Source of the DNA: an uncultured Bacteroidota bacterium
GTDB lineage: Bacteria; Bacteroidota; Bacteroidia; Chitinophagales; Chitinophagaceae
Direction: 5' to 3'
Assembly (NCBI GenBank): GCA_903839875.1
Contig: CAIMDZ010000149.1
Location: 1-62,483, forward strand
Length of the DNA stretch: 62,483 bases
In this document: positions 12,743-30,894 of the stretch, piece after piece
Position numbering within the stretch: the first letter of the stretch is position 1
How the letters are laid out: each line of letters starts with the position of its first letter
The notes under the pieces: generated by a model
Database searches by the model: none
The model's input: the letters and a program-made list of their open reading frames with translations, nothing else
What the model was told of the DNA's origin: nothing
Program-made: the position numbers and the translations under genes

Positions 12743-12773
12743 GGTCTCATAGTTCAATGGATAGAATAGAAGT
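12743..12773 (+). pseudogene. Severed 5' half of tRNA-Arg (element 1 attachment site, left)
   Basis: The first 31 bases match the 5' end of the intact tRNA-Arg at 29253 with one difference (A instead of G at tRNA position 7). The match stops in the anticodon stem/loop. Position 7 here would pair as A-U with U66 of the 3' half at 29317, while the present tRNA has a G-U wobble. This suggests the left piece is the ancestral chromosomal 5' half. The crossover therefore lay within the 5' half or anticodon region. Confidence 0.8.
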
Positions 12774-13548: not shown

Positions 13549-13624
13549 AATAATTAAAGATAAAACCTTACTTGGACATATTACACTTTCTGTTTCAAAT
13601 GTAATAGTAATATAGTTGTTATTT

Positions 13625-13658: not shown

Positions 13659-13677
13659 TGATAATTAAAACAACAAA

Positions 13678-14058: not shown

Positions 14059-14221
14059 TAAAGCACTTTTATTAGTGAAACCTATAAACCCTATCAATTT
14101 TTTAAGACACCGTCACAACAGTTCAGGCAAAAAAGTTTTACAGAATTTTTGCCAGAATTTTTTACATTAATTAATTATCTACTTTATCTTAATTTTAAGA
14201 CAAACTATAAAACTCTAACAT

Positions 14222-16201: not shown

Positions 16202-16219
16202 ACAATTAAAAAACGCAAA

Positions 16220-16495
16220 ATGAAAATTCAAATTAACAAAGAAGAAGCAAGGCAACCTTTTTATGCCACACAACCAAACTGGTTTAACAATTTAACCGAA
16301 GCAGAAAAAGATGCTTGGTTGGATGGTTATATAAAATTACTGTTGGAAGAAAACCCAGAAATGTTTTTGGTTGAAAAAACTGATTACAATAAACCATTTT
16401 GTTTATTCACCCCTGATGAAGATGGTAGAAATGCTGCAAACAAAAGACTGGATTTGGAAGGCAGAAATGATGATATAATTATCTGTAAAAAATAA
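16220..16495 (+). CDS. Unrecognised small protein, 91 aa
   Basis: 91 residues (MKIQINKEEARQPFYATQPNW... ICKK). It follows the methyltransferase gene by 18 nt on the same strand, so it is probably co-transcribed. It is soluble, rich in Asp, Asn and Lys, with a WFNNLTEAEKDAWLDGYIKLL helix region. No family was recognised. Confidence 0.6.
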   Translation: MKIQINKEEARQPFYATQPNWFNNLTEAEKDAWLDGYIKLLLEENPEMFLVEKTDYNKPFCLFTPDEDGRNAANKRLDLEGRNDDIIICKK

Positions 16496-16591
16496 TTACA
16501 AACAATCACTTAGAAAAACGTTTTGTAGATATTGCCTTTCAAGAATGCCAAGATATAATTAGCCTCTTTCAATAACCCAAAAATAAAAACA

Positions 16592-16852
16592 ATGAAACAT
16601 CAAACCAAAAATGGCGCAAAAACGGTAGCATTATTAAGCTTTAAGCTGCAAAATCCCGGTAAAGATATAGTTATCACACAAAGGGATTGCACAGATGAAT
16701 TGGTAGAAATAACCAGAAGGTTATTTGATTTGAATATTTGTCCTACGGGCGATATAACAGAATACAAAAACGCTTTACTGGATATTTACCAGATTTATAA
16801 TGGTGATATGGATAAAACCATAGAACATATCGTTAAGGGAGTAAAGGAGTAA
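16592..16852 (+). CDS. Unrecognised small protein, 86 aa
   Basis: 86 residues (MKHQTKNGAKTVALLSFKLQ... HIVKGVKE). It has the composition of a small soluble regulatory protein, possibly alpha/beta. It is the last gene of the run 13678-16852 and is followed by 420 nt without a clear gene. Confidence 0.55.
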   Translation: MKHQTKNGAKTVALLSFKLQNPGKDIVITQRDCTDELVEITRRLFDLNICPTGDITEYKNALLDIYQIYNGDMDKTIEHIVKGVKE

Positions 16853-16859
16853 ACCTTTA

Positions 16860-17274
16860 CGCAAACGTTCTTTGAAATATTGGAATACCTATAACCCTAT
16901 ACAGTCTGTATTTCTATGTAGACTCTTTTTTTAATAAAATCAACCCGCCATGTAAGATTGAGTTGGGTATTAGGATACACAGGTCAATTTGAAATCTATA
17001 TCTGAAAGGTTAGGCATGGTAACAGCCAGTGGTGGCTCTTATGCAGGGTAACGAAAACTTTCAAGTTTTAGTATGCCATTTACAAGAAACTGAAAATGCT
17101 ATTTTAACTAATTCCGGGATAGGGCCAGTGCGTCCAATGTCTAAATTGATATTCCTGTACGGGAAATAGAACATGCCTGCAAGAGCAAGCCCTATATTCT
17201 ACTATATACTCTTCGATCAGTCTCAATTTAAGATTGGGTAGTGAACTTCGTGAACTCAGTACCTCGCTCACTCT
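16860..17274 (+). other. Possible structured non-coding RNA region
   Basis: No credible gene lies here, but many helices can be drawn. GGCAT (17013-17017) pairs with ATGCC (17073-17077), enclosing AGCCA-GTGG-TGGCT (17024-17037) and AAAACT-TTCA-AGTTTT (17054-17069), a three-way junction. Further on, ATAGGGC (17119-17125) can pair with GCCCTAT (17189-17195). It does not match the tmRNA, RNase P or riboswitch cores I know. The strand is assumed from neighbouring genes. Confidence 0.35.
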
Positions 17275-17565
17275 TTGCCAGTCTTATATTTCGTGCGTCT
17301 GTCGCCGCACATTCGTTGTGAGCTGAACAAAGAATGGCCCAATACGAAACAAAAAATTCAAGAACTAAATCAGCATATAAAAAATCTTGAAACTAAACAT
17401 TTGAACCAGGTGGATGCACTTGAATACAAACAATTGGAAAAAGACATAGCCTATATGTATGATGTCATTCGTGATGGAGGCACGACTTTTAATATTCGAC
17501 TTCGGTGGGAAATGCTTATCCCCATTATCTTCGGGGCTATCGCATTAATTGCAGGGCTCATTTGA
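17275..17565 (+). CDS. Possible small tail-anchored protein, start uncertain
   Basis: The open frame begins with a TTG and has no ATG near its start. The C-terminal half looks real: a coiled-coil stretch (KQKIQELNQHIKNLETKHLN, continuing to about residue 62) followed by a single hydrophobic segment, MLIPIIFGAIALIAGLI, at the very end. This could be a truncated gene whose 5' end was lost at the junction near 17270. The function is unknown. Confidence 0.4.
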   Translation: MPVLYFVRLSPHIRCELNKEWPNTKQKIQELNQHIKNLETKHLNQVDALEYKQLEKDIAYMYDVIRDGGTTFNIRLRWEMLIPIIFGAIALIAGLI

Positions 17566-17598
17566 GAATTCCGCAGCTGAATAAACAAATACATGAAA

Positions 17599-18171
17599 TT
17601 ACTTATGCTTTGACAAATCATTACGTATTTTACTAAGCGCCTCAGGTGTAACGCCCAGGTAAGAAGCAATCATTTTTTGTGGCACTCGCTGCACAATTTC
17701 AGGATAGGTTTGTATGAAGTCCAGATATCGTTCCTGCAAAGTAGCGCTCATGAGTAGGATAATTCTTTTTTGCAGTACTGCTACTCTTTTTGTCAATTTA
17801 TCTAAAGCTAATTTTGGCTGTAAGAGTTGAGTGTCGAGGTTAATAATCTTTTTGTCAAATACTTCTATTTCTGAATCTTCAATTGCGTCGACAAATAACT
17901 GTGTGGGCATATTTTTGACATGAGATTCAATATCCCCGATTATCCAACCTTCCGGAGCAAACATAAAAATATGCTCCTTACCCTTTTCGTCTATTGCGTA
18001 GCTTCGTAGGCAACCCTTCTTTACAAAATAAAACTTCTCTGGTTTTTCACCTTTCCTTCGTAAAATTTCGCCTTTTGCAATATGCTTGATTACGACACTA
18101 CTCTTGAGTAACTGAAGTTTCTCAGAGGAAATGGATTTTTCATTGGAAATTTCATCAAGGAGTGATTTCAT
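17599..18171 (-). CDS. Crp/Fnr-family transcriptional regulator
   Basis: 190 residues. The N-terminal cyclic-nucleotide-binding-like beta-roll is seen in KGEILRRKGEKPEKFYFVKK and GCLRSYAIDEKGKEHIFMF. The C-terminal helix-turn-helix is RVPQKMIASYLGVTPEALSK. It lacks an Fnr-type cysteine cluster. Proteins of this type are abundant in Bacteroidota and usually control adjacent stress or membrane genes. It is divergent from the yceI-like gene, the most likely target. Confidence 0.85.
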   Translation of the reverse strand: MKSLLDEISNEKSISSEKLQLLKSSVVIKHIAKGEILRRKGEKPEKFYFVKKGCLRSYAIDEKGKEHIFMFAPEGWIIGDIESHVKNMPTQLFVDAIEDSEIEVFDKKIINLDTQLLQPKLALDKLTKRVAVLQKRIILLMSATLQERYLDFIQTYPEIVQRVPQKMIASYLGVTPEALSKIRNDLSKHK

Positions 18172-18269
18172 TGGCTAAGAATTAATAACAAAGGTAGTTT
18201 GTTTCTTAATCTACATTAAGTGAGATGGTTTAATTATTGTTGAACTTTGTGCAAACAAAAATCAAAAAC

Positions 18270-18806
18270 ATGAAAAAAATGAAAATCGGGTATGCGGCGT
18301 TTATCATATTGATTGCCTGCACTGCATTCACAACAGCAAATTCCATTAACTGGAAGGTAACGGAAGGCTATTCCATAAAATTCACCAGTAAAGATCCATC
18401 AGGCGTATTTACAAAGTTCAAAGGTGATATAGCATTTGACGAAAATAACCTCAATGCTTCAAAAATTGACGTTGCAGTAGATGCTTCTTCTATAAATACA
18501 GGTAACGGCATGAAAAATAAGAAAGCCAAAGGCGGAAAATTCTTTGATGTCGAGAACTATCCCGAAATAAAGTTTGTTTCAAATAAGTTCTCTAAGACCG
18601 CTACTGGCTATGAAGTGAGAGGTACACTTGATATGCATGGCGTAAAAAAAGAAGTAGCTATTCCATTTACATTCGTGAATAACACATTTACTGGCAGTTT
18701 CGTAGTAAACAGGCTTGATTACAATATTGGTCCTGAAAAAGGAATGTCAGGTCATGCTGGTAAAGAATTGACAATTGATATTTCAGTACCCGTAACAAAA
18801 CAATAA
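18270..18806 (+). CDS. YceI-family secreted lipid-binding protein
   Basis: 178 residues from the ATG at 18270, with a signal peptide (MKKMKIGYAAFIILIACTAF). The YceI beta-barrel pattern is clear: SIKFTSKDPSGVFTKFKGDI, then KIDVAVDASSINTGN, MKNKKAKGGKFFDVENYP and GTLDMHGVKKEVAIPF. YceI barrels bind isoprenoid or fatty-acyl chains in the periplasm. The stop overlaps the next ATG by one base (TAATG), so translation is coupled. The divergent Crp-type gene probably regulates it. Confidence 0.88.
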   Translation: MKKMKIGYAAFIILIACTAFTTANSINWKVTEGYSIKFTSKDPSGVFTKFKGDIAFDENNLNASKIDVAVDASSINTGNGMKNKKAKGGKFFDVENYPEIKFVSNKFSKTATGYEVRGTLDMHGVKKEVAIPFTFVNNTFTGSFVVNRLDYNIGPEKGMSGHAGKELTIDISVPVTKQ

Positions 18807-19162
18807 TGAAGAAAATATTCATACACGGCATCGTTGCTGGCATTCTATCTGCGATAGCAGGAGTAATTTATTTCACGATCTATCAAAATACGCTGGAAAC
18901 CGCTTTTGGTAAAATAGTTAATATTCCATCAATAATCGGCGGCTCGGTGTTGGGGTCAATGTTGATTGCTTGCGGCTATGTTCTGTTGCAAAGAATGAAC
19001 AAAATAAAATTGGCAGGATGGTATCAGGTGTTGGTTTCAGTGATTTCTTTTGCTACAATTATCGGACCTATTAGCATGAGCTTGCCACTGAGCATAGAAA
19101 GTCCAGAGTTATTCCCACTTGCAGCACATTTTCATACGGAATATTGGGGCCTTTTTGAATAA
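18806..19162 (+). pseudogene. Membrane protein gene truncated at its 3' end
   Basis: 118 residues with three hydrophobic segments (GIVAGILSAIAGVIYFTIY; IIGGSVLGSMLIACGYVLL; VLVSVISFATIIGPISMSL). After PLSIESPELFP the sequence turns into HFHTEYWGLFE. I would expect another membrane helix here, so the C-terminus appears replaced at a junction near 19117-19160. It is coupled to the YceI gene. The family is unnamed; truncation is inferred from the missing last helix and the convergent gene running into it. Confidence 0.5.
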
Positions 19163-19619
19163 AAGTTAGGCAGCCCTCATCATTGATCCCTAACCTTGTT
19201 TTCACCGGGCTTCTGTTACTAATACGTTTTTTCTCGTAAATCAGACCAGTTGTTGGAGCGAAGTCATTCATAAAGAAAAGCGTATTGAAATAGAAAAGCG
19301 GATGTCCTGATATTTCATCTGTGCCAATTGGTTTTAGCATTAGGTTGTTCACGTGTATTTTTTGCAATGGCATTTTTAATACCATTATTCTGTCGCTAAA
19401 CAGCCTGTTGAAATAAGTGCATACCGGCCTGCTAAATATTCTGCTGCAAGTGTATATTGACACAGTGAAGTTGCCCTCATTCTTTTCGCCAATACTTTTT
19501 ACGCTGCTTGATGTAACTACTGAATGCCGTAACAAATAAAGCCGCAAGTGATTCCGAAAACAGAAGAGGATACTTAGGAATAATATCAGGCTCACCGCCA
19601 GTTTTTGCTTAACATTCAT
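19071..19619 (-). CDS. Unrecognised membrane-anchored protein with junction-derived C-terminus
   Basis: 182 residues from the ATG at 19619, with one N-terminal membrane segment (KLAVSLILFLSILFCF). The body (SIYTCSRIFSRPVCTYFNRL... KTRLGINDEGCLTF) reads like a real protein. The last 30 or so residues are antisense to the truncated membrane gene, so the natural end was probably lost at the same junction. The function is unknown. Confidence 0.45.
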   Translation of the reverse strand: MNVKQKLAVSLILFLSILFCFRNHLRLYLLRHSVVTSSSVKSIGEKNEGNFTVSIYTCSRIFSRPVCTYFNRLFSDRIMVLKMPLQKIHVNNLMLKPIGTDEISGHPLFYFNTLFFMNDFAPTTGLIYEKKRISNRSPVKTRLGINDEGCLTFIQKGPNIPYENVLQVGITLDFLCSVASSC

Positions 19620-19775
19620 ATTTCGCAATACTAATTAAAGGTGGTATAATTTAGACACCAAAAAGCAATATTATTTTGCCTTATTACCAAGGAATTCGGT
19701 GACTTTATGTTTGTACCACTTTGGGTAACCTCAAAATCGCAATGAACAGGTTTGTGAAAATGAACAATGTGGTAT

Positions 19776-20507
19776 TTAGCAATTCTCATTTCTCCAAAAT
19801 GATCCAGAACCGTCAGGGTGCTGATGAGTTTGCCAATCAAATATTTTTATTTTTTTAAAGGTAGGAGGAATATTATTAGGTGTAATGCCGTGATCTCCCT
19901 TCATCAATTCGCAAATTTCCAGAGTATCAAAATGAATACCATCAGATATCCAAACGTCAGCCGTGGCTTGAGCCATAAGACAGCTTATTTTTATTGAGTT
20001 TGCAATACAATATTTATAAAATGACTCATTTTCCACAGATAAATATAGTATTTGAAGGTGACCATTGTTAATTAATAGTCCCTCGGAAAACGGTATTTCT
20101 AAATGGTAGTTGTCATTATTTCTTATTAGATCAATTGGATCAAGAATTCCAATATCCAACAAATGCTTATCTTCTTCATTCAGAAGATGCTTTTGATTAT
20201 TAACTAATTCATCTGCCATATCTGGAGATAATGTATCTAAATAACCATTCTTTGTAAATTTATTTAGGTCTTCAATAATATTATCAGCTATTATATCGGC
20301 AAGCTTTTTATCTTTTTGATTATACCTATAAATAACTTCACGATTACTAATTTGGTAAGCAACATCAGTCAAAATGAATAATTTAGGCATTCGGGTATTC
20401 CCATATCCATTCTGCCATAGACTAAGATTTTGAAGATCACCACCAGACGAGGAGTACCAGCAAATTTCACTCTTGTCGTAATTTTTCAAAAGTTCCGCTA
20501 ATTTCAT
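19776..20507 (-). CDS. Unrecognised protein, 243 aa, downstream of WYL regulator
   Basis: 243 residues (MKLAELLKNYDKSEICWYSS...), soluble, no signal peptide. The N-terminal third has CWYSSSGGDLQNLSLWQ, then PKLFILTDVAYQI. It has some resemblance to Bacteroidota proteins that pass a position or identifier through a small alpha/beta domain, but no family was recognised. It lies 31 nt after the WYL-type gene on the same strand, so the two are probably co-transcribed. The C-terminal FDWQTHQHPDGSGSFWRNEN may be natural. Confidence 0.55.
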   Translation of the reverse strand: MKLAELLKNYDKSEICWYSSSGGDLQNLSLWQNGYGNTRMPKLFILTDVAYQISNREVIYRYNQKDKKLADIIADNIIEDLNKFTKNGYLDTLSPDMADELVNNQKHLLNEEDKHLLDIGILDPIDLIRNNDNYHLEIPFSEGLLINNGHLQILYLSVENESFYKYCIANSIKISCLMAQATADVWISDGIHFDTLEICELMKGDHGITPNNIPPTFKKIKIFDWQTHQHPDGSGSFWRNENC

Positions 20508-20538
20508 TTTTGTGAAGTTTTAATTGTGACTCTATTAC

Positions 20539-21453
20539 CTAAATGTTTTTGTCCAAAGCGTTGATCACATTTTCATTAATATATTCTCTCAACTTGGTTT
20601 TTAGTATTTCATCTTTGGTGTTGACAACAACATGCGCCAACATCCCTGTTATCATTCTTGCAACGGCATACAAACCAATCTCAGACACATCCAGCGTTAA
20701 CTTATAGTCGTACTCATATACTCTGTTGTTAAACTCCTTTGTAATTCCGTGCTTTTTGGGCAGATGCATTATCCTTTTGCGGAACCTGTTAAAATCACGC
20801 GCTATCATTTCACTGGAGTGTGTCGTGAGGAGCAGTTCTACATTGAATATTATTGCACCTTTCCAATAGAAGATACCAAAATCATCAAATCTTCCTTCGT
20901 CCAGGTTGACCTGAATGTCAAATCGTTTAGGTGTCAAAATCGTGTCTTCAATCCTGTTGAGATTAAATGTTCTCACACCCTTATCTTCACCTTCTGGATA
21001 AATTGCGAGAACGATAGGAGATTCTGTTATTATTAATTTAAGTGGTAGTATCCTCTTATCGGATGCTGGTTTACCATTTCCTGGTTTGTAACGCATCTGA
21101 ACCAACCTCTTTTCTTTAATTGCCTTATCTAAGTCCTTGATCTTTTTTTTAAGCGCAGTATCGTAAATACCTTCGAGTGGCTTATCATCATTGGTGATTC
21201 TTGTTCTTGATACCTTATCCTTCGGTGTTTTAAAATTCGTATTTCTGGGTATAAGCTGATATCCTTTATTTCGTTCGCTTTTGAGGTAATAGTCTGTTTG
21301 CGTTTCCTTTATCTTTTTCAGCCTACGTTCAATAGATTTTGGCTCCAAATTAAAGGTCTTACAAAGCTCTTCTTTGGATATACTGCGTTTCTTTTTGAGC
21401 AGTTTTGTTATCTCAACAATTTCTTTCAATACATTCTCTTCCTTCCTTTTCAT
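20539..21453 (-). CDS. WYL-domain transcriptional regulator
   Basis: 304 residues. The N-terminal helix-turn-helix is KKKRSISKEELCKTFNLEPK followed by SIERRLKKIKE. The middle has the WYL-type fold region: IKEKRLVQMRYKPGNGKPAS, then RILPLKLIITESPIVLAIYP and GVRTFNLNRIEDTILTPKRF. The Trp-Tyr-Leu tripeptide itself is replaced by Val-Leu-Ala, so the ligand pocket is atypical. A C-terminal extension similar to the WCX region follows. Related regulators control phage-defence loci such as BREX and CBASS. It is divergent from the operon starting at 21753 and probably acts on the palindromes between them. Confidence 0.75.
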   Translation of the reverse strand: MKRKEENVLKEIVEITKLLKKKRSISKEELCKTFNLEPKSIERRLKKIKETQTDYYLKSERNKGYQLIPRNTNFKTPKDKVSRTRITNDDKPLEGIYDTALKKKIKDLDKAIKEKRLVQMRYKPGNGKPASDKRILPLKLIITESPIVLAIYPEGEDKGVRTFNLNRIEDTILTPKRFDIQVNLDEGRFDDFGIFYWKGAIIFNVELLLTTHSSEMIARDFNRFRKRIMHLPKKHGITKEFNNRVYEYDYKLTLDVSEIGLYAVARMITGMLAHVVVNTKDEILKTKLREYINENVINALDKNI

Positions 21454-21554
21454 GATTAATTAACTACGGATTGATACAGACGTATATTTAGAACGCAAAG
21501 GTATTGATTATTATTCCCAGCAAACAAGTCACTATAAATTTATTGTTAGTCGTA

Positions 21555-21688
21555 AATGTCTATTAAAATACCATAAAAGTCAATACAGCTTTGATTATTT
21601 AATAATTCAGTGTGTTGCTCATAATTTCTTTTATTTTTAGGCAAGCTGTATTGGACCTACTTTTGTATTCGGTATTTAAATAGACATA
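21555..21688. promoter_or_regulatory. Nested inverted repeats between WYL gene and the 21753 operon
   Basis: The outer arms are ATGTCTATTAAAATACC (21556-21572) and GGTATTTAAATAGACAT (21671-21687), one mismatch. The inner arms are CAATACAGCTT (21581-21591) and AAGCTGTATTG (21643-21653), perfect. They lie in the 300-bp divergent intergenic region. They could be dimeric WYL-regulator operators or a folded leader RNA. Confidence 0.6.
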
Positions 21689-21752
21689 AAATTATGGAAG
21701 TACCGGCGAGAATTTGATTATATGCAGTCTTAAACATCAAAATATCCATCTA

Positions 21753-22448
21753 ATGCAAATTGATACCAACAAGAAAACCAGTGAGGCGGTTCAAACAGAC
21801 AAATACAAAAGCGAGGTGGAGCAACTTACGAATTCCCAACTCAGTATTTCGGAACTTATTGCCTTATTTGACCAACCCAATAAGCACGATCAATACAAAG
21901 ATATTATTGCTGCCTTTCTCCGCAATGACTTAACCATCAAGATTAAGAAAACGAACAGGTTCTCAAAGTGTATTGAAGAAGATATGTATATCTCATTGGC
22001 TAATGGGTGTATGCGCCATGAACCAAACCTATTTTTCCGCTTCCTGGAGCAGTTACCAGAAATTACTCTGCTAACCGATGCTATTCTTGGTGCAGATAAG
22101 CGATTTAAAGGTTACCATATAATAATAAGAACCTTTAAGGATGAGAAGTTACTTCAATTCCTTGACCTGTGTCAGGCAACCCTGGTAGAGAAAATAGTTC
22201 TGATATCCCTTTTACATATTTTCCTTAGGAGCAATAAAACCAGTATAGATGCATCGGAGCTGTTCATATTCATTCCTAAGAGTTACTACGTCAACTTCCT
22301 TTTCTTCCTGAATGTAGGATGTACCCTCGTTGACCAGAAGCTAATATCATATAATACTGAGAGATTCTCAAATGAATTGGTGTTTTATATTAACCAGCGT
22401 GTAATGCAGTTATTGAGCGGATACATAGTGGAACATATTTCGAACTAA
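21753..22448 (+). CDS. Unrecognised protein, 231 aa, first gene of WYL-linked operon
   Basis: 231 residues from the ATG at 21753 (MQIDTNKKTSEAVQTDKYKS...). The start 39 nt upstream is less likely. It is mostly helical, with hydrophobic helices EKIVLISLLHIFLRS and NFLFFLNVGCTLVD in the second half, which may pack as a helical repeat bundle rather than cross a membrane. No enzyme motif is visible. It is the first of about ten same-strand genes with short gaps. Confidence 0.6.
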   Translation: MQIDTNKKTSEAVQTDKYKSEVEQLTNSQLSISELIALFDQPNKHDQYKDIIAAFLRNDLTIKIKKTNRFSKCIEEDMYISLANGCMRHEPNLFFRFLEQLPEITLLTDAILGADKRFKGYHIIIRTFKDEKLLQFLDLCQATLVEKIVLISLLHIFLRSNKTSIDASELFIFIPKSYYVNFLFFLNVGCTLVDQKLISYNTERFSNELVFYINQRVMQLLSGYIVEHISN

Positions 22449-22469
22449 ATATTAATACCTAAAAAAAGC

Positions 22470-22871
22470 ATGAAGATGACTCAACAAGATTTTAAGAACT
22501 TCAACCTGTACGTGACGCCAAACGGCATAATCCTGTGGTCTAAGCTCAGTACTGATTTCCCATTCTTCATTATGGATAGCCAAAGAATGGGATGTAAAGT
22601 ATTCCTATCAGATGAAATGCAAGGCGTAGAATATCATTTTCAGGGAAGGTCTTTGGATCTGGTATCAACAGCAGTGTTTACAACGTTTATTTTACCAGAC
22701 GGATCGACGCATTGGGTGGTTACAATACCCTTTAATGGTTTGATGGTGATCCTGGGGGATTATTTTCCCGATAGCATTTTTAGTCAGCATTATAAGTTTT
22801 CCAGTAAGGATTTTCCATACGGTTATCGGAATTACCCATCAATGGCATTTTCGGTGGGTCATCCAGAATAA
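22470..22871 (+). CDS. Unrecognised protein, 133 aa
   Basis: 133 residues (MKMTQQDFKNFNLYVTPNGI...), beta-rich, with aromatic-Gly patterns (FPYGYRNYPSMAFSVGHPE) at the C-terminus. It follows the previous gene by 21 nt. No family was recognised. Confidence 0.55.
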   Translation: MKMTQQDFKNFNLYVTPNGIILWSKLSTDFPFFIMDSQRMGCKVFLSDEMQGVEYHFQGRSLDLVSTAVFTTFILPDGSTHWVVTIPFNGLMVILGDYFPDSIFSQHYKFSSKDFPYGYRNYPSMAFSVGHPE

Positions 22872-22929
22872 GTAAATCATATTTTTGAGTCAAAAACCAA
22901 ATTATTAATAACAGTTAAAAACAAACAAC

Positions 22930-23058
22930 ATGGCAAAAATCATGCAAATCACGAAAGCTAATAAGCTTGATAAGCGCACAACGTCTGGTATAGCCGCATC
23001 AGGAAAATCAAGGTCATCTAAAACCTTGGCAAAAAAGATCATGAAAGGTAATCGGTAA
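22930..23058 (+). CDS. Very small basic protein, 42 aa
   Basis: 42 residues (MAKIMQITKANKLDKRTTSG...), with about 11 Lys and Arg. It sits between two unrecognised genes with gaps of 58 and 24 nt and shares the leader sequence AAAACAAACAACATGGC with the next gene. The repeated leader supports the start choice. It could bind nucleic acid. The confidence is moderate because of the small size. Confidence 0.5.
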   Translation: MAKIMQITKANKLDKRTTSGIAASGKSRSSKTLAKKIMKGNR

Positions 23059-23082
23059 TTGTAATAGTGAAAAACAAACAAC

Positions 23083-23316
23083 ATGGCAAAGATTAGTGTT
23101 TACTTTAGCATCTCGCAGAACGGGAACGTCAGCAATACCATTTACGGCAAGTTGGATGTTGACAATGACCTCAAGAATGCATTGATTCGGGATCAGCAGA
23201 ATAACGGTGGTGCCTATCTCTGTGAGCAAATAGAACACTTTTGCTTTTCGGACATTCAGCCTGTTATGATGCCAGGCATCCCGTTTAAGGTGGTACATGC
23301 TCACATTTCTGGTTAA
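23083..23316 (+). CDS. Unrecognised small protein, 77 aa
   Basis: 77 residues (MAKISVYFSISQNGNVSNTI...). The alternating hydrophobic pattern suggests a small beta-alpha fold. It has the same AAACAACATGGC leader as the gene before it. No family was recognised. Confidence 0.5.
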   Translation: MAKISVYFSISQNGNVSNTIYGKLDVDNDLKNALIRDQQNNGGAYLCEQIEHFCFSDIQPVMMPGIPFKVVHAHISG

Positions 23317-23325
23317 AGATATTTT

Positions 23326-23934
23326 ATGGGATTCAATCCAACGACTAAGCGAATCGGTTTATTTAAAGAGCGTGATTTCAGCAAAATCTATATCAGTGAT
23401 TTTACCTGGGATGATATTAGTCCTCTATTATTGAGTAAAAGAGATATAAGGGTTCTCTTATTTGTGATCGCATTCGATATAAACGATTATTTGACGAAAA
23501 ACGTCACGATTGACCCTTCATTTTCCTGTATTGCGCCTCCAGTATATTATGTATATTTCGAAGAAAATGGTCAACATAATACACCGTACTTTTTGCCTTT
23601 CAATGAACCAGTTTCATTTGAGTTAATCCAGGAGAAAATATCGGTGATAGGTAAACCTCCCTCGGAATATACTATCAGATTGAACAACGGCATTGAGGTT
23701 GGTAGCTATTTATGGGACGATTGTACCTTCCTGATGCCTGAGCTGTTGTTTAATGAATACGCACCACGGATATTAACCTTTATACCGTACCATTTAAATG
23801 CCGATCTGCTAACTCAGTTGATTAATAACCCAGAACACATCATACATATTGATGAACAAAACAACATTGTTGAGATCGAGCGTGTTGACAATTTTGAGAA
23901 GTATATGTGGGGAGTTTATCATGACAGACTTTAA
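23326..23934 (+). CDS. Unrecognised protein, 202 aa
   Basis: 202 residues (MGFNPTTKRIGLFKERDFSK...), soluble, mixed alpha/beta. It starts 9 nt after the previous stop, so coupling is likely. No catalytic motif or known fold was recognised. The C-terminus has the segment HIDEQNNIVEIERVDNFEKY. Confidence 0.55.
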   Translation: MGFNPTTKRIGLFKERDFSKIYISDFTWDDISPLLLSKRDIRVLLFVIAFDINDYLTKNVTIDPSFSCIAPPVYYVYFEENGQHNTPYFLPFNEPVSFELIQEKISVIGKPPSEYTIRLNNGIEVGSYLWDDCTFLMPELLFNEYAPRILTFIPYHLNADLLTQLINNPEHIIHIDEQNNIVEIERVDNFEKYMWGVYHDRL

Positions 23935-24006
23935 AACAGAGATATACAAGCAACAGCCAGTTATTTCGGAATGGAGATGATTAGTTCAGGAGATTAAAAC
24001 CAGTTT

Positions 24007-24261
24007 ATGAAGTATACGCTTAATGTTAGGAATCGTTTTGTTGATGACTTTGATGTTGCGAATATCCAACCATCAAACTTTTCAAAGCTATATGAGGCTA
24101 TAAAGGTATCAGGGTCAGATTTCTTTTCAACCGATTACACAAAACGAATAATTCTTGCTTTTGAGACGCTTATTTATTTTATGAACAATGCCGAATATGA
24201 AAAATGCGCTATCATTAAAAATGCTCTTTTCATTAACTGGATACAGAAGGAAAGGAGTTGA
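24007..24261 (+). CDS. Unrecognised small helical protein, 84 aa (paralogue of next gene)
   Basis: 84 residues (MKYTLNVRNRFVDDFDVANI...). The second half, AFETLIYFMNNAEYEKCAII, aligns with AYNALMHYNCHERYTEKCIL in the next gene, so the two look like diverged tandem duplicates. The function is unknown. Confidence 0.5.
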   Translation: MKYTLNVRNRFVDDFDVANIQPSNFSKLYEAIKVSGSDFFSTDYTKRIILAFETLIYFMNNAEYEKCAIIKNALFINWIQKERS

Positions 24262-24319
24262 CCAAAGAGTTGGTTGGTGAACGATGTAATAATTATGCTT
24301 TACTAAAATTGGTTGGTCG

Positions 24320-24601
24320 ATGAACAACATACATAGCTCAGATTTTACGGTTGGAAGTATATTAATTGAGATCCAGGCTGAGATTGAAAAATGGAATATT
24401 GATGCTTACCATAAAACCTTTATGGATTTAAAATCCTATGGTCAGTCAGTATTTGATGAGAATACCGCTCGAAAGGTATATGCTGCGTACAATGCCTTAA
24501 TGCATTATAACTGTCATGAGAGATACACCGAAAAATGCATCTTGATCAGGCATGAATTAGAGCGATTGAAGACAAGGCTGTTCTGGCAAGACGATAATTA
24601 A
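24320..24601 (+). CDS. Unrecognised small helical protein, 93 aa (paralogue of previous gene)
   Basis: 93 residues (MNNIHSSDFTVGSILIEIQA...). It resembles the preceding gene around the Tyr-x-x-x-x-x-x-Glu-Lys-Cys segment and has the same length and helical pattern. Duplication of a small gene inside the operon suggests a paired or multimeric product. Confidence 0.5.
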   Translation: MNNIHSSDFTVGSILIEIQAEIEKWNIDAYHKTFMDLKSYGQSVFDENTARKVYAAYNALMHYNCHERYTEKCILIRHELERLKTRLFWQDDN

Positions 24602-24635
24602 CAGACTTGTATTTACAACTTTGAAATTTACTGAA

Positions 24636-25034
24636 ATGGACAGACCTGATGTAGATTTGAATGATGGAATCCTTACACCATTGATTGGTTTTGATGGAGA
24701 CCAGATTAAGTACATAAGCGCAATCCATGAGTTTGAGAGGAGTTGCGAGAGGAAATTGATAGAGACGTTTTCCCTGGTCAACATTTGTGGCTTGGTTAAA
24801 ACAGATCCATACTCATTGCCCTATAATAAAGAAATTGTGGTTTTCTTTGGTAGGGATGAATACCGTAGTCACCCATACATATTCCGCAGAGCCGCCAGGT
24901 ATATCGTAAAACAGCTTTTGGAGGAGGATATGTATATGGTGAGATTCTACTTGTTTATAAATGTTCTTACAAAAAAGAATATATTTACATCAGGGGTTGA
25001 GTATAGATTCAGGTATTACAGCAAAGACAAATAG
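24636..25034 (+). CDS. Unrecognised protein, 132 aa
   Basis: 132 residues from the ATG at 24636 (MDRPDVDLNDGILTPLIGFD...). A TTG 15 nt upstream is also possible. It is soluble, with a Lys/Arg-rich C-terminal half (FRRAARYIVKQLLEEDMYMV). No family was recognised. It runs directly into the last gene of the operon, with a 49-nt gap. Confidence 0.5.
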   Translation: MDRPDVDLNDGILTPLIGFDGDQIKYISAIHEFERSCERKLIETFSLVNICGLVKTDPYSLPYNKEIVVFFGRDEYRSHPYIFRRAARYIVKQLLEEDMYMVRFYLFINVLTKKNIFTSGVEYRFRYYSKDK

Positions 25035-25083
25035 TTGTAAACCCCTTAATTTAAAATCCGTAACTAAATTCAATTATGGTAAT

Positions 25084-25932
25084 ATGCTAATCACAAAAGA
25101 AAGTTTTGCTGATATTTTCTCAAACCAACCGGATATTGATGCTGTTCCTCATAACGGAACTAATCCGCCTTATGTCGGTATGGGAAATCCAAACAGTTCA
25201 TTATTAGTGGTAGGAAACGAAAAAGCACTAAATAAAGAAGATGATCAACCTATAATAAATCATGAACTATTGAATAATTGGAATCATTGGTATGATATTT
25301 TAAACAATCACAACGATTTGATTGACCCTTTTAATATAGAATTGATGAATAGACCTGTTTCCATGAATGGGTTTAATCCATTTAACCCTTTATTATTTGC
25401 ACCTACACTTGAAAGAGTTCAGGGTATAGGGGGGCACACTTATTATGGGCTTCAACGATTAATTAATGCTTATGAGAATGAAGGCCCAATTACTGGATTG
25501 TTTGAGACAAGTTTTGCTAACAATACCTTTTCAAAATGCTTTATGACAGAAATGAGTGCAAACCCTTCAAGAACTACAAAAAAAGCTGGCTTTAATTCGG
25601 CTGATTTTTTTACAAGTAGCCGATACTGTTTTATGACAGGGATAGCTGCGTCTTTTTATCAGGGTTTTAAAACAACCATTCTTTACTGTGGCCGCAACCG
25701 CAAATATGTGGGGAACCCTGACTCGGAAGAAAGATTAAAAATAATAAGGATTTTTAATCCGAAGCTTGAACATGAGCATCGACGTATTGTAGTTTTCGGT
25801 GAAAAAAATATAGAATATTATGACACTGACAACGGTGCTCGTGTTATCTTATGTAGGCATCTATCAAATGGCTTTGGAAATGCTGATGCAAAAGCAGTTG
25901 CGAATTGTATGAAATTTAAATTGACCCTTTAA
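25084..25932 (+). CDS. Possible uracil-DNA-glycosylase-superfamily-like protein
   Basis: 282 residues from the ATG at 25084. The N-terminal PPYVGMGNPNSSLLVVGNEK recalls the GxPxAxxLxVGExPG motif of the uracil-DNA glycosylase (UDG) superfamily. Near the C-terminus VILCRHLSNGFGNADAKAVA could correspond to the HPS-like second motif. The catalytic residues are not obviously conserved, so this may be a distant non-enzymatic relative. It is the last gene of the WYL-linked operon. The fold assignment is an inference. Confidence 0.4.
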   Translation: MLITKESFADIFSNQPDIDAVPHNGTNPPYVGMGNPNSSLLVVGNEKALNKEDDQPIINHELLNNWNHWYDILNNHNDLIDPFNIELMNRPVSMNGFNPFNPLLFAPTLERVQGIGGHTYYGLQRLINAYENEGPITGLFETSFANNTFSKCFMTEMSANPSRTTKKAGFNSADFFTSSRYCFMTGIAASFYQGFKTTILYCGRNRKYVGNPDSEERLKIIRIFNPKLEHEHRRIVVFGEKNIEYYDTDNGARVILCRHLSNGFGNADAKAVANCMKFKLTL

Positions 25933-26022
25933 ACATTGTCGAAATTTGGGCGTATGGGCAAGCAGATTACTCATTTAAAAAGGATTGTTTGAACATTGAC
26001 AGTGAGAATATAGTATACTGAA

Positions 26023-26799
26023 TTATGACCGTCTTGGATCAAATATAAGTTTACAAAGGGCAGTTTTACGCGCCCCGTTGTCCAACCAGAGGGGTTTAGT
26101 TTCAGGATTATCAATAGTGTATTGGGCCAGGACTTTTAACGCTTGCTCTTTATCGCTTTCAGGTATAGAAATATGTCCATTCCAACCAGTAGGATCCTTA
26201 ATGAATTTGGCACTCTGGATTTCATTTTCCCGGAACACTGATTTCAACCAATTGCGAAAGTAGTGGTAGGACGTGCCAACCAATTTTACACGTTTAACAA
26301 TAGTGCTGGCGGTAGTATCGCTTTTCTTTTTTGAAGATTTCTTAGGTTCTACTTCTTCAACCTGAGTATCTTCAATAACTGGCTCATTACCTTCAACCAC
26401 TACTTCATGGTTCTCTGTGTTCTCGGCAATTACTTCCAGTGCATCTACAACTGTTTCAGTGGCAGGCTCATTACCTTCAACCACTACTTCATGGTTCCCT
26501 GTGTTCTCGGCTACAACGGTGTCGGTAGCTGGCTCATTGCTATCAGGAACATGCTCAACCATTGTTTCAAGGTCATCTACATTTGCAGGAATTAAATCAG
26601 TAGCCACTTCATCAGAAATGATTTCTGTGTTTTCGATTACTTCCGAAATTGCCGGTGCTTCTTCGGTTACTAAATTTTCATCTGGATTCACTTCCAAATT
26701 TTCACTTACTGAAATAGTGGAAGCATCCACTAAATTATCACTGATTGCTTCTGCAACTGGCTTAGTGATTTGATTCTTACCTGTTTTTTTCTTTGACAT
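26023..26799 (-). CDS. Element protein with acidic tandem repeats and a conserved C-terminal domain
   Basis: 258 residues. The N-terminal 150 are very acidic and disordered, with repeats of the form ENTGNHEVVVEGNEPATETV about 28 residues apart. The C-terminal 95 residues (VKRVKLVGTSYHYFRNWLKS... LCKLIFDPRRS) look folded and basic. Function unknown. It converges with the WYL-linked operon and lies upstream of the small HTH gene in the element's right part. Confidence 0.6.
   Translation of the reverse strand: MSKKKTGKNQITKPVAEAISDNLVDASTISVSENLEVNPDENLVTEEAPAISEVIENTEIISDEVATDLIPANVDDLETMVEHVPDSNEPATDTVVAENTGNHEVVVEGNEPATETVVDALEVIAENTENHEVVVEGNEPVIEDTQVEEVEPKKSSKKKSDTTASTIVKRVKLVGTSYHYFRNWLKSVFRENEIQSAKFIKDPTGWNGHISIPESDKEQALKVLAQYTIDNPETKPLWLDNGARKTALCKLIFDPRRS
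26381..26545. repeat. 84-bp-spaced coding repeats in the acidic region
   Basis: GGCTCATTACCTTCAACCAC followed by TACTTCATGGTTC is at 26381 and again at 26465, nearly identical, with a third partial copy at 26531. They encode the acidic 28-residue repeat of the minus-strand gene. Confidence 0.75.
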
Positions 26800-26926
26800 A
26801 ATTTATCGTTTTTTATTTCGGCTAAGTTGAACCTATAGACCGAATAAACCCCAACGATCCTAGCTATAGCAGTTATTATTTGACCTATAGATAAGCTTTT
26901 CAATGATGGCATTCTTGATAGGCAAT

Positions 26927-27241
26927 TCATTGCTCCTCATTAAGGGCTTTAATGCGCATTGCTATTGTATTTTTTCTTTTAATAGTATGCGATGCCATGA
27001 AATCTGAAACGGCTTTTTCCGTGTATAATATAGTGTTTTGAATTTTGACGAATTCAATGATCCTCGCATCTCGCCAGTTATTAATAGTTTTAGTAGAAAC
27101 TCTGAGCTTAACAGCAAGCTCTTTAGTGTTGTACACTTTTCCAAGTCCTTTTATTTCATTAGACTTGAATGATTCAGCGATGAGATTAATCTTTTCCTCT
27201 AAGGAGAGGATGTCGTTTTTCGTTATGATGTCTATTGTCAT
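26927..27241 (-). CDS. Helix-turn-helix protein, excisionase-like
   Basis: 104 residues from the ATG at 27241. Residues about 40-75, YNTKELAVKLRVSTKTINNW followed by RDARIIEFVKI, form the MerR/excisionase-type winged helix common beside Bacteroidota integrases. It lies 275 nt from the integrase gene on the same strand. It may be a recombination directionality factor for element 1. The role is inferred from family and position. Confidence 0.7.
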   Translation of the reverse strand: MTIDIITKNDILSLEEKINLIAESFKSNEIKGLGKVYNTKELAVKLRVSTKTINNWRDARIIEFVKIQNTILYTEKAVSDFMASHTIKRKNTIAMRIKALNEEQ

Positions 27242-27515
27242 AATATTTTTCTTGTTAGAGCTATGTATAACCATAGCTAATCACCTTTGATATTTAATTG
27301 GAGAGTTATTGCAAGAGGATTGATGCTCTGTTTTAGCCTTGTGGGTGGGCAATCTTTCGTTATTATAGCAGCCAATAAGGCACAGAGAGAATAAAAAAAA
27401 CGCTGGCATAACTGCCAACGCTTCAATTTTTTTCACCACTCTGTAAGTCTATTGAAATACTGGTTCAAAAGCAATCATTTGTGAAAAAACAAAAGATTGC
27501 TTTGAACCAGCCCAT

Positions 27516-29120
27516 TTAACCTACCTGAAATTCTATATCAGTAATATCATTTCCTATTTTATTACTTACGCTTACTTTATTTAGTGGCTTAAAGTCTTTA
27601 TTATTCACATAGTTTTCAAGTACGCCTAATGTACTATGTCCTAATTGTTCTTGCATTCTATAAGTATTGGTATCGTTGTAAATCATTAGTTGTGTATAGG
27701 TATGTCTGGAGGTGTGTGTTGTTATTCTATTGATACCAACCAATTTGGATAAATCATCTAATCTGTGTTGATATGTTTTATGTCCTACTAAATATGCCCT
27801 ATACAGTTCGGGTGTTATTTTTATTTGTTCTTTAAATTCTTTGTCTTTTTCAGGTAGGTTAATAAAATCGGCATTATTCAAAATAGGAAATACGAAAGTG
27901 TTGCCCTTTTCAATTTTATGAATAGATAACCTAATTGCTGTTTCTTCTATTACCTGTTTAATCAAATTCTGTTTCACTTTAACCATTACATCAATCAATT
28001 CTTTTACTTCTCTTTCGTTGTCATTTTTAAATGAATAACCACCATATTCCGAATAGTTTTTTATTTCTTTCGGGTTTACAGTCTTAACACAAAAATTATC
28101 TATTCTTTCTTGTAACTGGGTTAACGTAAAACTTTTATCCATACCGTAGTGATAGCCGTTGATAAGTCCACCATCAAGAATTTCATTAAATCTGTTCTCC
28201 ATACCAATTGATTTCATTAGTATTTTACAAAGCATATAATTCAAATCAGTTTTCATAGGCTTGTAAGTTTTGAACATTACATAGTTTAATTGAGGGTCAT
28301 AATTTTTACCAGTCGGGACAAGTTCTAACCCTTCACGTACATTAAAAGTAGAAATGATAGTACCCCACCTTAATAGTAGCATATCAGATACACGCATTCC
28401 CTGGGCGTAAACTTGAAACAGAAACATATATCGGGTTATGTCTAAATTCGGGTTGGTAATAACTACGGTTTTTAATTTACTCAATTCATCTAATGTTAGT
28501 ACACGCCTGTCAATATCTGAATGTTGGTCATAATCAATAGTTTTAAATGGGTTGAAAGGAAGTGCGTAAGGTTCTTTCTTTAATTTTCTATTGATAATAG
28601 AATTAATGATTTTAAGATAGTGTGTGACTGAATTACTTGAAAGGGTGTTAGGGTCTTTTGCTGTTTTAAAATAATGCTTTAATTGTTCTACAAAATCAGG
28701 TGTGATTTCGCTAAACAATAAATCTTTTTTCTTTAATGTTGTAAGGTACTTTTCTAATTTAATTTTTACACTTTCGTGTTTTGTCTTGGAGCCTTGGTTA
28801 GTGGTTAACTCTAATTGTCTATCCCAAAATTTCAAAAACGAATTATTATCTTTTGAAGTTTGTGTAACAATTACACCTTGTGTTTCTTCTACTTCTTTAA
28901 ATGCTTTTTTGATTTGTGCATTTAAATTTTTATAGGTTGGTCCCATACCAGACATAAACCGTTGGTCTACCTCATTCCAATTGTTTTTAAACTGGATAAT
29001 ATTTACCTTAATACCCAGTGCTTTTTTCTTTCTGTTTTGCCTACCTTTGCTCTGTAAAAACAAATAACAATCAGTATCGGTTGCTTTGTTCTTGTAACAA
29101 ACTATATAGTTTTGACTGTT
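27516..29120 (-). CDS. Tyrosine recombinase (integrase) of element 1
   Basis: 534 residues from the ATG at 29120. The catalytic set is present: Arg243 in QGMRVSDMLLLRW, H469-x-x-R472 in THTSRHTYTQ, the His of QLGHST and the nucleophile Tyr504 in LENYVN. The N-terminal arm-binding and SAM-like core-binding domains precede this. An unusually long insertion (about residues 270-430) lies between box I and box II. It lies 133 nt from the tRNA-Arg gene and is surrounded by repeats A and B. It presumably catalyses integration at the tRNA. Confidence 0.9.
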   Translation of the reverse strand, partial: NSQNYIVCYKNKATDTDCYLFLQSKGRQNRKKKALGIKVNIIQFKNNWNEVDQRFMSGMGPTYKNLNAQIKKAFKEVEETQGVIVTQTSKDNNSFLKFWDRQLELTTNQGSKTKHESVKIKLEKYLTTLKKKDLLFSEITPDFVEQLKHYFKTAKDPNTLSSNSVTHYLKIINSIINRKLKKEPYALPFNPFKTIDYDQHSDIDRRVLTLDELSKLKTVVITNPNLDITRYMFLFQVYAQGMRVSDMLLLRWGTIISTFNVREGLELVPTGKNYDPQLNYVMFKTYKPMKTDLNYMLCKILMKSIGMENRFNEILDGGLINGYHYGMDKSFTLTQLQERIDNFCVKTVNPKEIKNYSEYGGYSFKNDNEREVKELIDVMVKVKQNLIKQVIEETAIRLSIHKIEKGNTFVFPILNNADFINLPEKDKEFKEQIKITPELYRAYLVGHKTYQHRLDDLSKLVGINRITTHTSRHTYTQLMIYNDTNTYRMQEQLGHSTLGVLENYVNNKDFKPLNKVSVSNKIGNDITDIEFQVG

Positions 29121-29162
29121 CATAATTTTTAGCGATTTTATGTATTGCAAAACTACATTAAT

Positions 29163-29249
29163 TTGGGGAACATTTGGGGGATATTTCAGACGAAATTACG
29201 ATTTGGGGGAGCAAGTAAAAAAGATAACTGATTGATTATAAATGTTTTA
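29163..29249. repeat. Right-end arm repeats A and B of element 1
   Basis: Repeat A is at 29163-29202 and B at 29226-29249, in the same orientation as the left copies at 12835-12874 and 12793-12816. They lie between the integrase and the tRNA, where integrase arm sites are expected. Confidence 0.8.
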
Positions 29250-29252
29250 CAC

Positions 29253-29327
29253 GGTCTCGTAGTTCAATGGATAGAATAGAAGTTTCCTAAACTTTTGATA
29301 CAGGTTCGATTCCTGTTGAGACTACCA
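29253..29327 (+). tRNA. tRNA-Arg(CCT)
   Basis: 75 nt including the encoded CCA. The acceptor stem is GGTCTCG with TGAGACT (G1-U72 and G7-U66 wobbles). The D stem is GTTC/GAAT. The anticodon stem GAAGT/ACTTT encloses the loop TTCCTAA, so the anticodon is CCT, reading AGG. The T stem is ACAGG/CCTGT with the loop TTCGATT. The 5' half was supplied by element 1 and the 3' half is overlapped by the serine recombinase gene on the other strand. A terminator follows. Its present promoter is unclear. Confidence 0.9.
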
Positions 29328-30894
29328 GAGGCGGAAACTGCAAATTTTCATTGCAGTTTCCGTTTTTCTTTTCCCTTAAAATGCTGTTCAGGCTTGCAAA
29401 GTAGCCGAATATCTCATCAACTTCTTCGGTTCGACACTCGTCATTTTTACGATTATACAGCACTCCCTTCGGAAATATCAAGAATTGTAACTCCTGCCGT
29501 TGCCTGTAATCGCCCAAATCCCATGCTGTAGCGAGTTTCGAGGATGCCTCTATTGCAAAGTCAATATATTCCTCAAGGTTCGACACCCCAACGGAACACT
29601 TTGACAATTCCTGCTCAATATTCTTCTTTTCATCCACGAATATCGCATTATACTTGTCAAACATACTTTTGTTTATTTCCTCAAGAATAAACCGCTCCTC
29701 CAGCCTGTCAATCTTCTTGTTTACCTCAGCTAATTTTGCCTTGAGGTCTGTCTCAACTTGTTCAGACTGTTCGTTTAGCTGGTTAAAGGATGCAATCATT
29801 TGTTCCTTGATAAGATACTTGGTATCGTCATTGACATTCAGGGCAAAATCGGAAAGCCTATACCGGAATTTATCGTTAAGGTATTCTGCCTGCCTGTTAC
29901 ATTTGCAGCCCGGTGTGTTGCACTTATAGTAATACTTCTGGTTCTTATATGCCTTGTAAGCTCTTAAATATTTACCGCATCCCTCGCACTTGTAAAACTG
30001 CTTCAGCGGAACCTCTTTATTTTCCGGTGCAATGGTATAGCCCTGCTTATTTTCTGATAGCACACCATTCACTTGTAAAAACAGTTCGTGGGAAACCAGC
30101 TTTTCCTGTTTACCTTCTACAACCTGCCCTTCGAGTAGGTTATGTACCAATAGACCGCAATAAAAAGGGTTCCTGAAAATCTCCGACATTCTTTGGCTGG
30201 ATAATTTTACCCCCTGTGCTGCCAGTTTGCGCCTTATTTCCTCGGTTGACAACTTATCATGCGCTTTCCAGTAAAAAGCCTTCCTGAGTAATTTACCAGC
30301 CGCATTTACGACTATTTCCTTCTTCCCGTTTGTTTTGACAATATCATATCCGGTCGGCGGGGCCGTACACCATTCGCCACGCAGCAGGGCTTCTTTTACG
30401 CCCGACATACATTTTTCTCTGCGTTGTTGATTATCGTACTCGCTAAATATGAACTGTATGTTTTGCTGCAGGCTTCCGCTTGCAGTGGTGGCATCAGATG
30501 GTTGTGTAACCGAACATAAATAAATGCTTTGCTTCTTTAATTGGTCTGCTAAATAGATAGCGTTAGCACCTGAACGACTAAACCTGTCAACGCTATAAAC
30601 GATGATGCAGGAAACCTTATCGCTGCTCCTCTTTACAAATGACAGCATGTTATTAAACTCCCTGCGCTCGTCAGTCTTTGCGCTTTCATAAGTACCCCCG
30701 AAATAACCAACGACTTTATAGCCGTTCTTATCCGCATATTGTTCACACGCTTTCTTCTGTGTTTCCAAGCTGAAATTATTGTCAGCTTGTTCTTTGGTTG
30801 AAACCCTTGTGTAAATAACGCAATTGCCGCCGTTGGATTTGCTTTTCTTCTTTCCTTTTGCGAATTGTCCGAATAATACAAGTTCCTTACTCAT
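29287..30894 (-). CDS. Large serine recombinase of element 2
   Basis: 535 residues. The resolvase catalytic domain has Ser32 in CVIYTRVSTKEQ and the Arg-containing VYSVDRFSRSGANAIYLADQ. The recombinase domain (EALLRGEWCTAPPTGYDIVK), a Cys-rich zinc ribbon (CEGCGKYLRAYKAY... CNTPGCKC) and a coiled coil follow. The last 13 codons plus stop (ending TGIEPVSKV) are antisense to the tRNA 3' half, and the terminator stem is also coding. The gene therefore abuts its own attachment site. It starts 4 nt inside the next upstream gene. Confidence 0.9.
   Translation of the reverse strand: MSKELVLFGQFAKGKKKSKSNGGNCVIYTRVSTKEQADNNFSLETQKKACEQYADKNGYKVVGYFGGTYESAKTDERREFNNMLSFVKRSSDKVSCIIVYSVDRFSRSGANAIYLADQLKKQSIYLCSVTQPSDATTASGSLQQNIQFIFSEYDNQQRREKCMSGVKEALLRGEWCTAPPTGYDIVKTNGKKEIVVNAAGKLLRKAFYWKAHDKLSTEEIRRKLAAQGVKLSSQRMSEIFRNPFYCGLLVHNLLEGQVVEGKQEKLVSHELFLQVNGVLSENKQGYTIAPENKEVPLKQFYKCEGCGKYLRAYKAYKNQKYYYKCNTPGCKCNRQAEYLNDKFRYRLSDFALNVNDDTKYLIKEQMIASFNQLNEQSEQVETDLKAKLAEVNKKIDRLEERFILEEINKSMFDKYNAIFVDEKKNIEQELSKCSVGVSNLEEYIDFAIEASSKLATAWDLGDYRQRQELQFLIFPKGVLYNRKNDECRTEEVDEIFGYFASLNSILREKKNGNCNENLQFPPLVVSTGIEPVSKV
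29332..29367 (+). terminator. Terminator of tRNA-Arg
   Basis: A perfect 12-bp stem, CGGAAACTGCAA-ATTTTCA-TTGCAGTTTCCG, followed by TTTTTCTTTT, begins 5 nt after the tRNA CCA. It lies inside the recombinase coding sequence on the other strand. Confidence 0.8.

Follow-up and report, generated by a model that had tools for sequence, protein, structure and literature searches.

A candidate WYL-controlled defence module with a uracil-DNA-glycosylase-like protein on a tRNA-Arg integrative element of an uncultured Bacteroidota bacterium

We analysed a stretch of DNA from an uncultured Bacteroidota bacterium of the family Chitinophagaceae (GenBank assembly GCA_903839875.1, contig CAIMDZ010000149.1; the whole stretch of 62,483 nucleotides (nt) is called the window here). 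It carries a 16.5-kb element (12743-29252) inserted at a tRNA-Arg(CCT) gene and, within that element, a cluster of eleven genes in which A and the WYL regulator gene B lie on the minus strand and face nine plus-strand genes, C to K. An earlier note on this DNA had proposed that a WYL regulator and a 243-residue (aa) partner, facing nine unrecognised genes inside a mobile element, make up a new defence or conflict system; the open reading frames (ORFs) do lie at the places and have the sizes that it gave. We describe the element and the cluster, trace the relatives of K, whose product is probably an enzyme of the uracil-DNA glycosylase (UDG) superfamily judging from models and alignments, and weigh the defence reading against its rivals.

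That the cluster sits inside a mobile element was borne out by a tRNA-Arg repeat, an integrase and relatives that lack the element. The integrase gene adjoins the intact tRNA-Arg(CCT) gene at the right end, and the partial copy at the left end lies 95 bp past gldD, much like the spacing between gldD and the tRNA gene in two relatives (~100 bp). Among 12 same-genus stretches downstream of gldD, tRNA-Arg(CCT) was found ~100, 100, 325, 460, and 1,500 bp past gldD in five, gaps too short to hold the element, whereas the gap in the window is 16.6 kb; the other seven stretches, one of which stops at a contig end, showed no tRNA. The partial and intact tRNA repeat, together with the short gap in relatives, thus mark a 16.5-kb insertion in the window with an integrase, a flanking attachment (att) repeat, and an element-free site in relatives (5/12 stretches). 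A helix-turn-helix (HTH) protein of the HTH_17 family encoded in the element is perhaps an excisionase. Among the other products of the element are a YceI protein, a protein that combines cNMP-binding with Crp-like domains, and a DNA methylase (N6_N4_Mtase, 14222-16201) whose N-terminus looks ParB-like by eye.

Coding support was found throughout the cluster: in-frame codon usage exceeded that of the five other frames for all ten non-WYL ORFs covered by the test, B being part of the codon-usage training set. Support was weakest for E (z 2.1) and F, where the lead was narrow (0.112 vs 0.047), and these two genes have 21 identical bases in common around their ATG. When ten of the cluster proteins (all but the 42-aa E) were scanned against Pfam, NCBIfam, PADLOC, and PHROGs, B gave the sole family match and the nine others gave no confident family, so the description of these genes as unrecognised still stands. 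A matched DUF7663 at 0.011 and its relative in another Bacteroidota locus (L024) at 1.5e-4, below the cut-off. Matches of I to GajB (9e-4) and of C to TIGR04116 (0.029) and phrog_6048 (1.1e-3) were by judgement taken as chance, and a UVR-like motif in H and I was an impression by eye without backing from any Pfam model.

Table 1. Features of the element, the gene cluster, and the B-C intergenic region, in window coordinates
Feature	Position	Strand	Remarks
Left end, partial tRNA-Arg(CCT)	12743..12773	+	31-nt copy of 5' half, one mismatch vs 29253-29283
A, 243 aa	19776..20507	-	Relative near K in L024; N-terminus weakly DUF7663-like
B, 304 aa, WYL-domain regulator, N-terminal HTH	20539..21453	-	Pfam
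Promoter-like site for B-A, TTTG-N17-TACCTTTG	21496..21524	-	Bacteroidota-type consensus
Operator candidate	21556..21687	.	Inverted repeat 21556-21572 / 21671-21687, 16 of 17
Inner 11-nt repeat of operator candidate	21581-21591 / 21643-21653		
-7-like motif TACTTTTG for C-K	21658..21665	+	
C, 231 aa	21753..22448	+	Equal-length relative divergent from WYL gene in L020
D, 133 aa	22470..22871	+	No relative found
E, 42 aa	22930..23058	+	Weakest coding support
F, 77 aa	23083..23316	+	Start context in common with E
G, 202 aa	23326..23934	+	Longer relatives in L009, L010
H, 84 aa	24007..24261	+	Paralogue of I; relative in L024
I, 93 aa	24320..24601	+	Paralogue of H
J, 132 aa	24636..25034	+	No relative found
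K, 282 aa, UDG-superfamily-like	25084..25932	+	Family in 14 other loci
HTH_17 protein	26927..27274	-	HTH_17 8.2e-8
Tyrosine integrase of element	27516..29150	-	Phage_integrase 6.6e-11
Intact tRNA-Arg(CCT), right end of element	29253..29327	+	

The regulator named in the earlier note was recovered directly, with Pfam placing a WYL domain in B at 2.1e-7, above the cut-off, and HTH_11 just below it (2.7e-5, 24.4 bits vs a cut-off of 25); a B-family profile matched solved WYL proteins weakly (2.4e-4). The 299-bp gap between B and C holds one -7-like motif per direction. The promoter-like site for B and A is of the Bacteroidota-type consensus, and the pattern used found no -33 partner for the C-K motif. 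The right arm of a 17-nt inverted repeat, our operator candidate, starts 5 bp past the C-K -7-like motif; its 16-of-17 match was equalled in 1/400 shuffles, and the inner 11-nt repeat was unremarkable (23/400 shuffles). BrxR, a WYL repressor of defence genes, is reported to bind inverted repeats close to the promoter of its own gene, with known defence systems adjoining 48% of the BrxR homologues (PMC9122601). Like BrxR as described there, B has HTH and WYL domains, has an inverted repeat upstream, and faces probable defence genes, but it is divergent from its operon and its repeat arms are 98 nt apart rather than 5 (PMC9122601).

The earlier note had also suggested that the last product may have a UDG-like fold, and this found support through relatives of K and not through the model of the window K itself. 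For a compact relative (L026), a model made with nine aligned sequences reached a predicted local distance difference test score (pLDDT) of 79 and a predicted template modelling score (pTM) of 0.85. Its nine best matches in the PDB were all of UDG or thymine-DNA glycosylase type, within the UDG superfamily, which we counted as agreement in fold; the top match was 4zby, a family-4 UDG (probability 0.98, E 0.011). A profile of 14 K sequences matched three family-4/5-like UDGs with a probability of 48% and a score of 34.9, ten other profile comparisons scoring at most 17.6, and a nine-sequence profile matched them at 32%, with 0/200 column shuffles matching its score; other K profile comparisons gave 0.5% or lower. 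Family labels (4/5-like, family-1-like, SMUG2-like) were assigned by motif.

Conserved positions in the 14 K sequences follow the UDG motif order, as G-x-E, T-[WY], F-x-[TS]-[ED], and [HQC]-L-[SG]. The motif A region (E46) is conserved in 14/14, as are T119 followed by Trp or Tyr, F153, and L260; T155 and S261 are each found in 13/14, an acid stands at 156 in every sequence (Glu 12, Asp 2), and motif C position 259 is Gln in 10, Cys in 2, and His in 2. K thus resembles family-4/5 UDGs in having the motif A region, B, and C in the same order and in the fold match of L026, but differs in lying below Pfam UDG detection, in carrying Gln, Cys, or His at motif C, and in having Glu or Asp at motif B, where the usual residue is given as Asn in the cited part of PMC11078745.

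The K family was found at 14 distinct loci besides the window. A search of 296 genomes of the phylum returned one relative besides the window K, a scan of genome contigs gave six loci, 215 genomes from a single family contained six matches, three of them new, and 257 genomes yielded three further solid loci. Relatives are rare, occurring in 6/215 genomes of that one family with the window genome counted. A 12-sequence K alignment detected three viral contigs with K genes, two of them further loci; viral-contig scans that used K, A, B, or C as single queries, or alignments of G, K, or A, returned nothing. By tblastn, 72,556 plasmid records held no match to two K queries (window and L026), to C, or to the A relative from L024, and 50,697 phage records held none to two K queries (window and L089). 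The K searches of those records thus gave no sign of plasmid or phage housekeeping (the earlier note had allowed for element housekeeping), although a K gene is present on the three viral contigs. The closest relative, in an uncultured Bacteroidales genome (L024), has 50% identity to K (shuffle z 99.6). Repeat recoveries were collapsed (L027 into L008; L030-L032 into L026, L008, and L025 by coordinates; L105 into L089), and rows removed before counting comprised C matches with internal stops in G390, G475, and G160, a G471 match to A that spanned 43 residues, and four K matches from a single genus that were both weak and partial (G038, G054, G100, G163). The K gene of L061 is broken by an in-frame stop and was omitted from the 14-sequence set, which holds the window K and 13 relatives.

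Defence genes recur around these K genes. At least one neighbour matched a PADLOC model at 1e-10 or better in 8/14 of the other K loci, a raw count from a scan of 20 chosen neighbours that left those of L028, L029, L061, L103, and L104 outside. The matching neighbours, which sit 63 bp to ~4 kb from K, include a type I restriction-modification (R-M) system directly upstream of K (L062), type IIG and AbiH proteins with PDC-M66A at 1.7e-10 (L063), PtuA-PtuB (Septu) with PDC-S01 (L090), a TIR-like protein (L089), IetA with a subtilase (L026), a helicase in a locus where Mrr_cat adjoins K (L008), RmrA (L025), and an IetA-like ATPase (L024). Immediate same-strand neighbours include HsdR (63 bp), AbiH (49 bp), Mrr_cat (37 bp), and an HTH-HNH protein at 24 bp, both domains of which fall below the Pfam cut-off. 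On a viral contig (L104, 4970-6687), a K gene whose assignment was confirmed by profile shares 4 nt with a retron reverse transcriptase gene; the latter matched PDB retron reverse transcriptases at 2.5e-26, and Rfam recognised no known retron RNA there. The overlap suggests that a glycosylase may act as a retron partner, which, if true, would be a new effector type. We infer that the PADLOC neighbours, with the retron reverse transcriptase in a ninth locus, strengthen the defence link of the earlier note.

Other partners were seen as well. In two Bacteroidales loci (L028, 8007-9935; L029, 401-2331) a short NAD-dependent DNA ligase gene comes immediately after the K gene, and in L103 (5953-7138) the K gene has an 8-nt overlap with an ORF, GIY-YIG-like by eye, for which no PDB sequence match was found. 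A WYL-like ORF on the L104 contig (2075-3145) was likewise recognised by eye only, and a PDB sequence search gave it no match.

Whether the cluster genes travel together, as the earlier note had expected of a single system, received a divided answer. In L024, a single same-strand run brings K and a relative of A (29%) together with a WYL protein, a WG-repeat protein, an 88-aa protein resembling H and I, and two further small ORFs; the shuffle z is 35.7 for A and its L024 relative and 7.4 both for H with the 88-aa protein and for H with I, and the L024 WYL protein failed the z 4.5 screen against B. This was the only one of the 14 other K loci with A, K, and an H/I-like gene beside a WYL gene. 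In a second genome (L020), a C relative, also 231 aa (z 11.5), is divergent from a WYL gene as in the window; the WYL protein (z 10.8 with B) was recognised by PADLOC (8.6e-6) and not by Pfam. B also matched a protein of L019 (z 41.6), G matched proteins of L009 (z 45.9) and L010 (z 32.4), and B and G relatives occur on different contigs of one genome (G461). When the window proteins were compared by tblastn with 21 loci, two of them repeats, none of the 13 remaining K loci showed a relative of A, B, C, or G; a short stretch of L021 also matched A. The same comparison revealed no relative of D, E, F, or J in any of the 21 loci (these four, like H and I, were not among the collection queries), so the co-travel evidence does not reach the whole C-K operon.

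Two observations concern the surroundings of these relatives. The G relative of L010 (1346-10267) lies near a WXG100 protein (1.1e-9) and, by eye, an FtsK-like ATPase and MORN and WG-repeat proteins, making this a possible secretion-linked conflict locus. Related proteins of ~315 aa with a GEAPPP motif occur near the WYL genes of L019 (11406-12350) and L020 (6077-7042); considered as possible equivalents of K, they were linked by profile comparison neither to K nor to UDGs (at most 0.8% with three UDG sets) and were left out of the argument.

Defence by removal of bases from phage DNA has been described recently: the report on Brig1 dates from 2024, and two more Brig proteins have followed (PMC11078745, PMC13160076). 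As described there, Brig1 removes alpha-glucosyl-5-hydroxymethylcytosine from T4 DNA, needs Tyr121 and Glu147, and has 4zby as a close structural homologue (PMC11078745), and Brig3 removes 5-hydroxymethylcytosine, its partner BapA taking the sugar off (PMC13160076). Restriction glycosylases, which predate the Brig1 reports, excise an unmethylated base within a recognition sequence (as reported in part of PMC10273834) and so attack foreign DNA by base removal, as we propose for K. K resembles Brig1 and Brig3, on their published descriptions, in its probable membership of the UDG superfamily with 4zby as the best or a close structural match, in having a pocket acid with an aromatic before it (Brig1 E147 and Brig3 D127; K acid 156 and aromatic 120), in lying among defence genes, and in that an operon partner can be present (BapA for Brig3). 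It differs in the gap between aromatic and acid, ~26 residues in Brig1 and Brig3, 36 in K, and 30 in L026, and in that its cluster adds a WYL regulator and further genes. The likeness to Brig1 and Brig3 comes from published descriptions and a structural match, not from sequence comparison; by analogy the cluster may work like a Brig system, and membership would need sequence comparison and an assay.

Since K has the acid and the upstream aromatic of Brig1 and Brig3, the cluster may be read as WYL-gated base-excision defence, and we lean slightly towards regarding it as a WYL-controlled defence module on the tRNA-Arg integrative element with K as effector. In such a module, B would be a repressor, probably bound to the inverted repeat at 21556-21687. 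It would silence the promoter of C-K, and perhaps that of its own gene as well, with infection or DNA damage providing the signal that lifts the repression. K would then probably flip out and remove a non-canonical base of the invading DNA, and the resulting abasic sites may block replication or be cut by other enzymes, as with Brig1 and Brig3. Their recurrence with K in L024, the locus most closely related, makes A and the H/I-type proteins probable accessory parts, and C probably belongs with the WYL switch. If experiments confirm it, the cluster would add a variant to base-excision immunity.

Several results weigh against this reading. The window K model was poor (pLDDT 62), and Foldseek returned no UDG among the 50 matches listed for it (its S-adenosylhomocysteine hydrolase matches, with template modelling (TM) scores of ~0.2, were dismissed as noise). 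No PDB match of the L026 model had an E below 0.001, TM-scores being 0.3-0.5; against a viral library, a phage DNA polymerase came first (E 0.011) and named UDGs ranked 3, 5, and 7, none below 0.001. Sequence and profile searches of PDB chains with K found no UDG or glycosylase, Pfam assigned none of the K proteins it was run on, those of the window, L008, and L024, to a UDG or any other family, and the K profile matched family-1-like and SMUG2-like UDGs of related genomes at only 0.5% and 0.1%. Motif C is mostly Gln or Cys in the K family versus His in UDGs. On the side of context, the neighbour count is the raw one given above, several PADLOC matches hit broad families such as ATPases and HTH-peptidase regulators, the sole neighbour of L088 scanned with PADLOC matched nothing, no defence gene was seen by eye among the neighbours of L061, and A recurs in only 1/14 of the other K loci.

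The uneven recurrence of the genes would also fit a patchwork operon made of two unrelated cargo modules, with A, B, and K (and H and I) serving defence and the rest of C-J belonging to another conflict system, e.g., of immunity or secretion-linked proteins. We consider this rather unlikely. D, E, F, and J are without relatives found, G has relatives in another genome, one near the WXG100 protein, and a C relative accompanies a WYL gene in a genome (G115) where no K match was found, although the contig carrying it ends soon after; a single promoter-like site and tight gene spacing speak for one unit, however, as do H and I, which sit inside C-K and have a counterpart that recurs with A and K in L024.

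Other rivals turn on what K does. UDG-superfamily enzymes are mainly repair enzymes, and K with its neighbours might help to repair or maintain the DNA of the element or its host, for instance by removing damaged bases, with the WYL protein as a DNA-damage regulator. The NAD-dependent DNA ligase adjoining two K relatives, a SRAP gene ~0.66 kb from one, and the occurrence of WYL regulators in DNA-damage responses (stated in the cited part of PMC10693628) would suit this, but an ordinary UDG is already present in the genome, and the rarity of K relatives and their repeated placement among R-M, Septu, AbiH, TIR, and retron genes make a repair role improbable. It seems similarly improbable that K is a catalytically dead UDG-fold sensor that binds DNA or nucleotides and alerts another effector of the cluster: motif C varies among His, Gln, and Cys and the partners of K differ from locus to locus, but E46, T119, the aromatic at 120, and the acid at 156 are present in 14/14 sequences, which fits an active pocket.

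Taking the cluster as a WYL-gated defence module with K as effector, we tentatively put forward, as a possibility we would rate somewhat below even, that K founds an undescribed Bacteroidota family of defence glycosylases of a plug-in kind. Its members would be coupled to one partner or another, be it a restriction enzyme, a nuclease, a DNA ligase, or a retron reverse transcriptase, and here K would combine with A, H/I, and the WYL switch into a multi-protein machine for detecting and stripping modified phage bases. A separate family recurring next to such varied defence genes, once in overlap with a retron reverse transcriptase gene, would point to glycosylases as a general component of Bacteroidota defence, and it would supply candidate enzymes with new base specificities and candidate helper partners. 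Listings of open-access literature held nothing on the K family or DUF7663, and no title on a retron-glycosylase pairing.

Beyond the right end of the element, a serine recombinase gene (29287-30894) has its end overlapping the tRNA-Arg gene, which suggests a second element stacked at the same site. Downstream of it we noted, by eye, a further recombinase-like ORF (41245-42309) and an ORF resembling rifampin ADP-ribosyltransferase (42846-43355).

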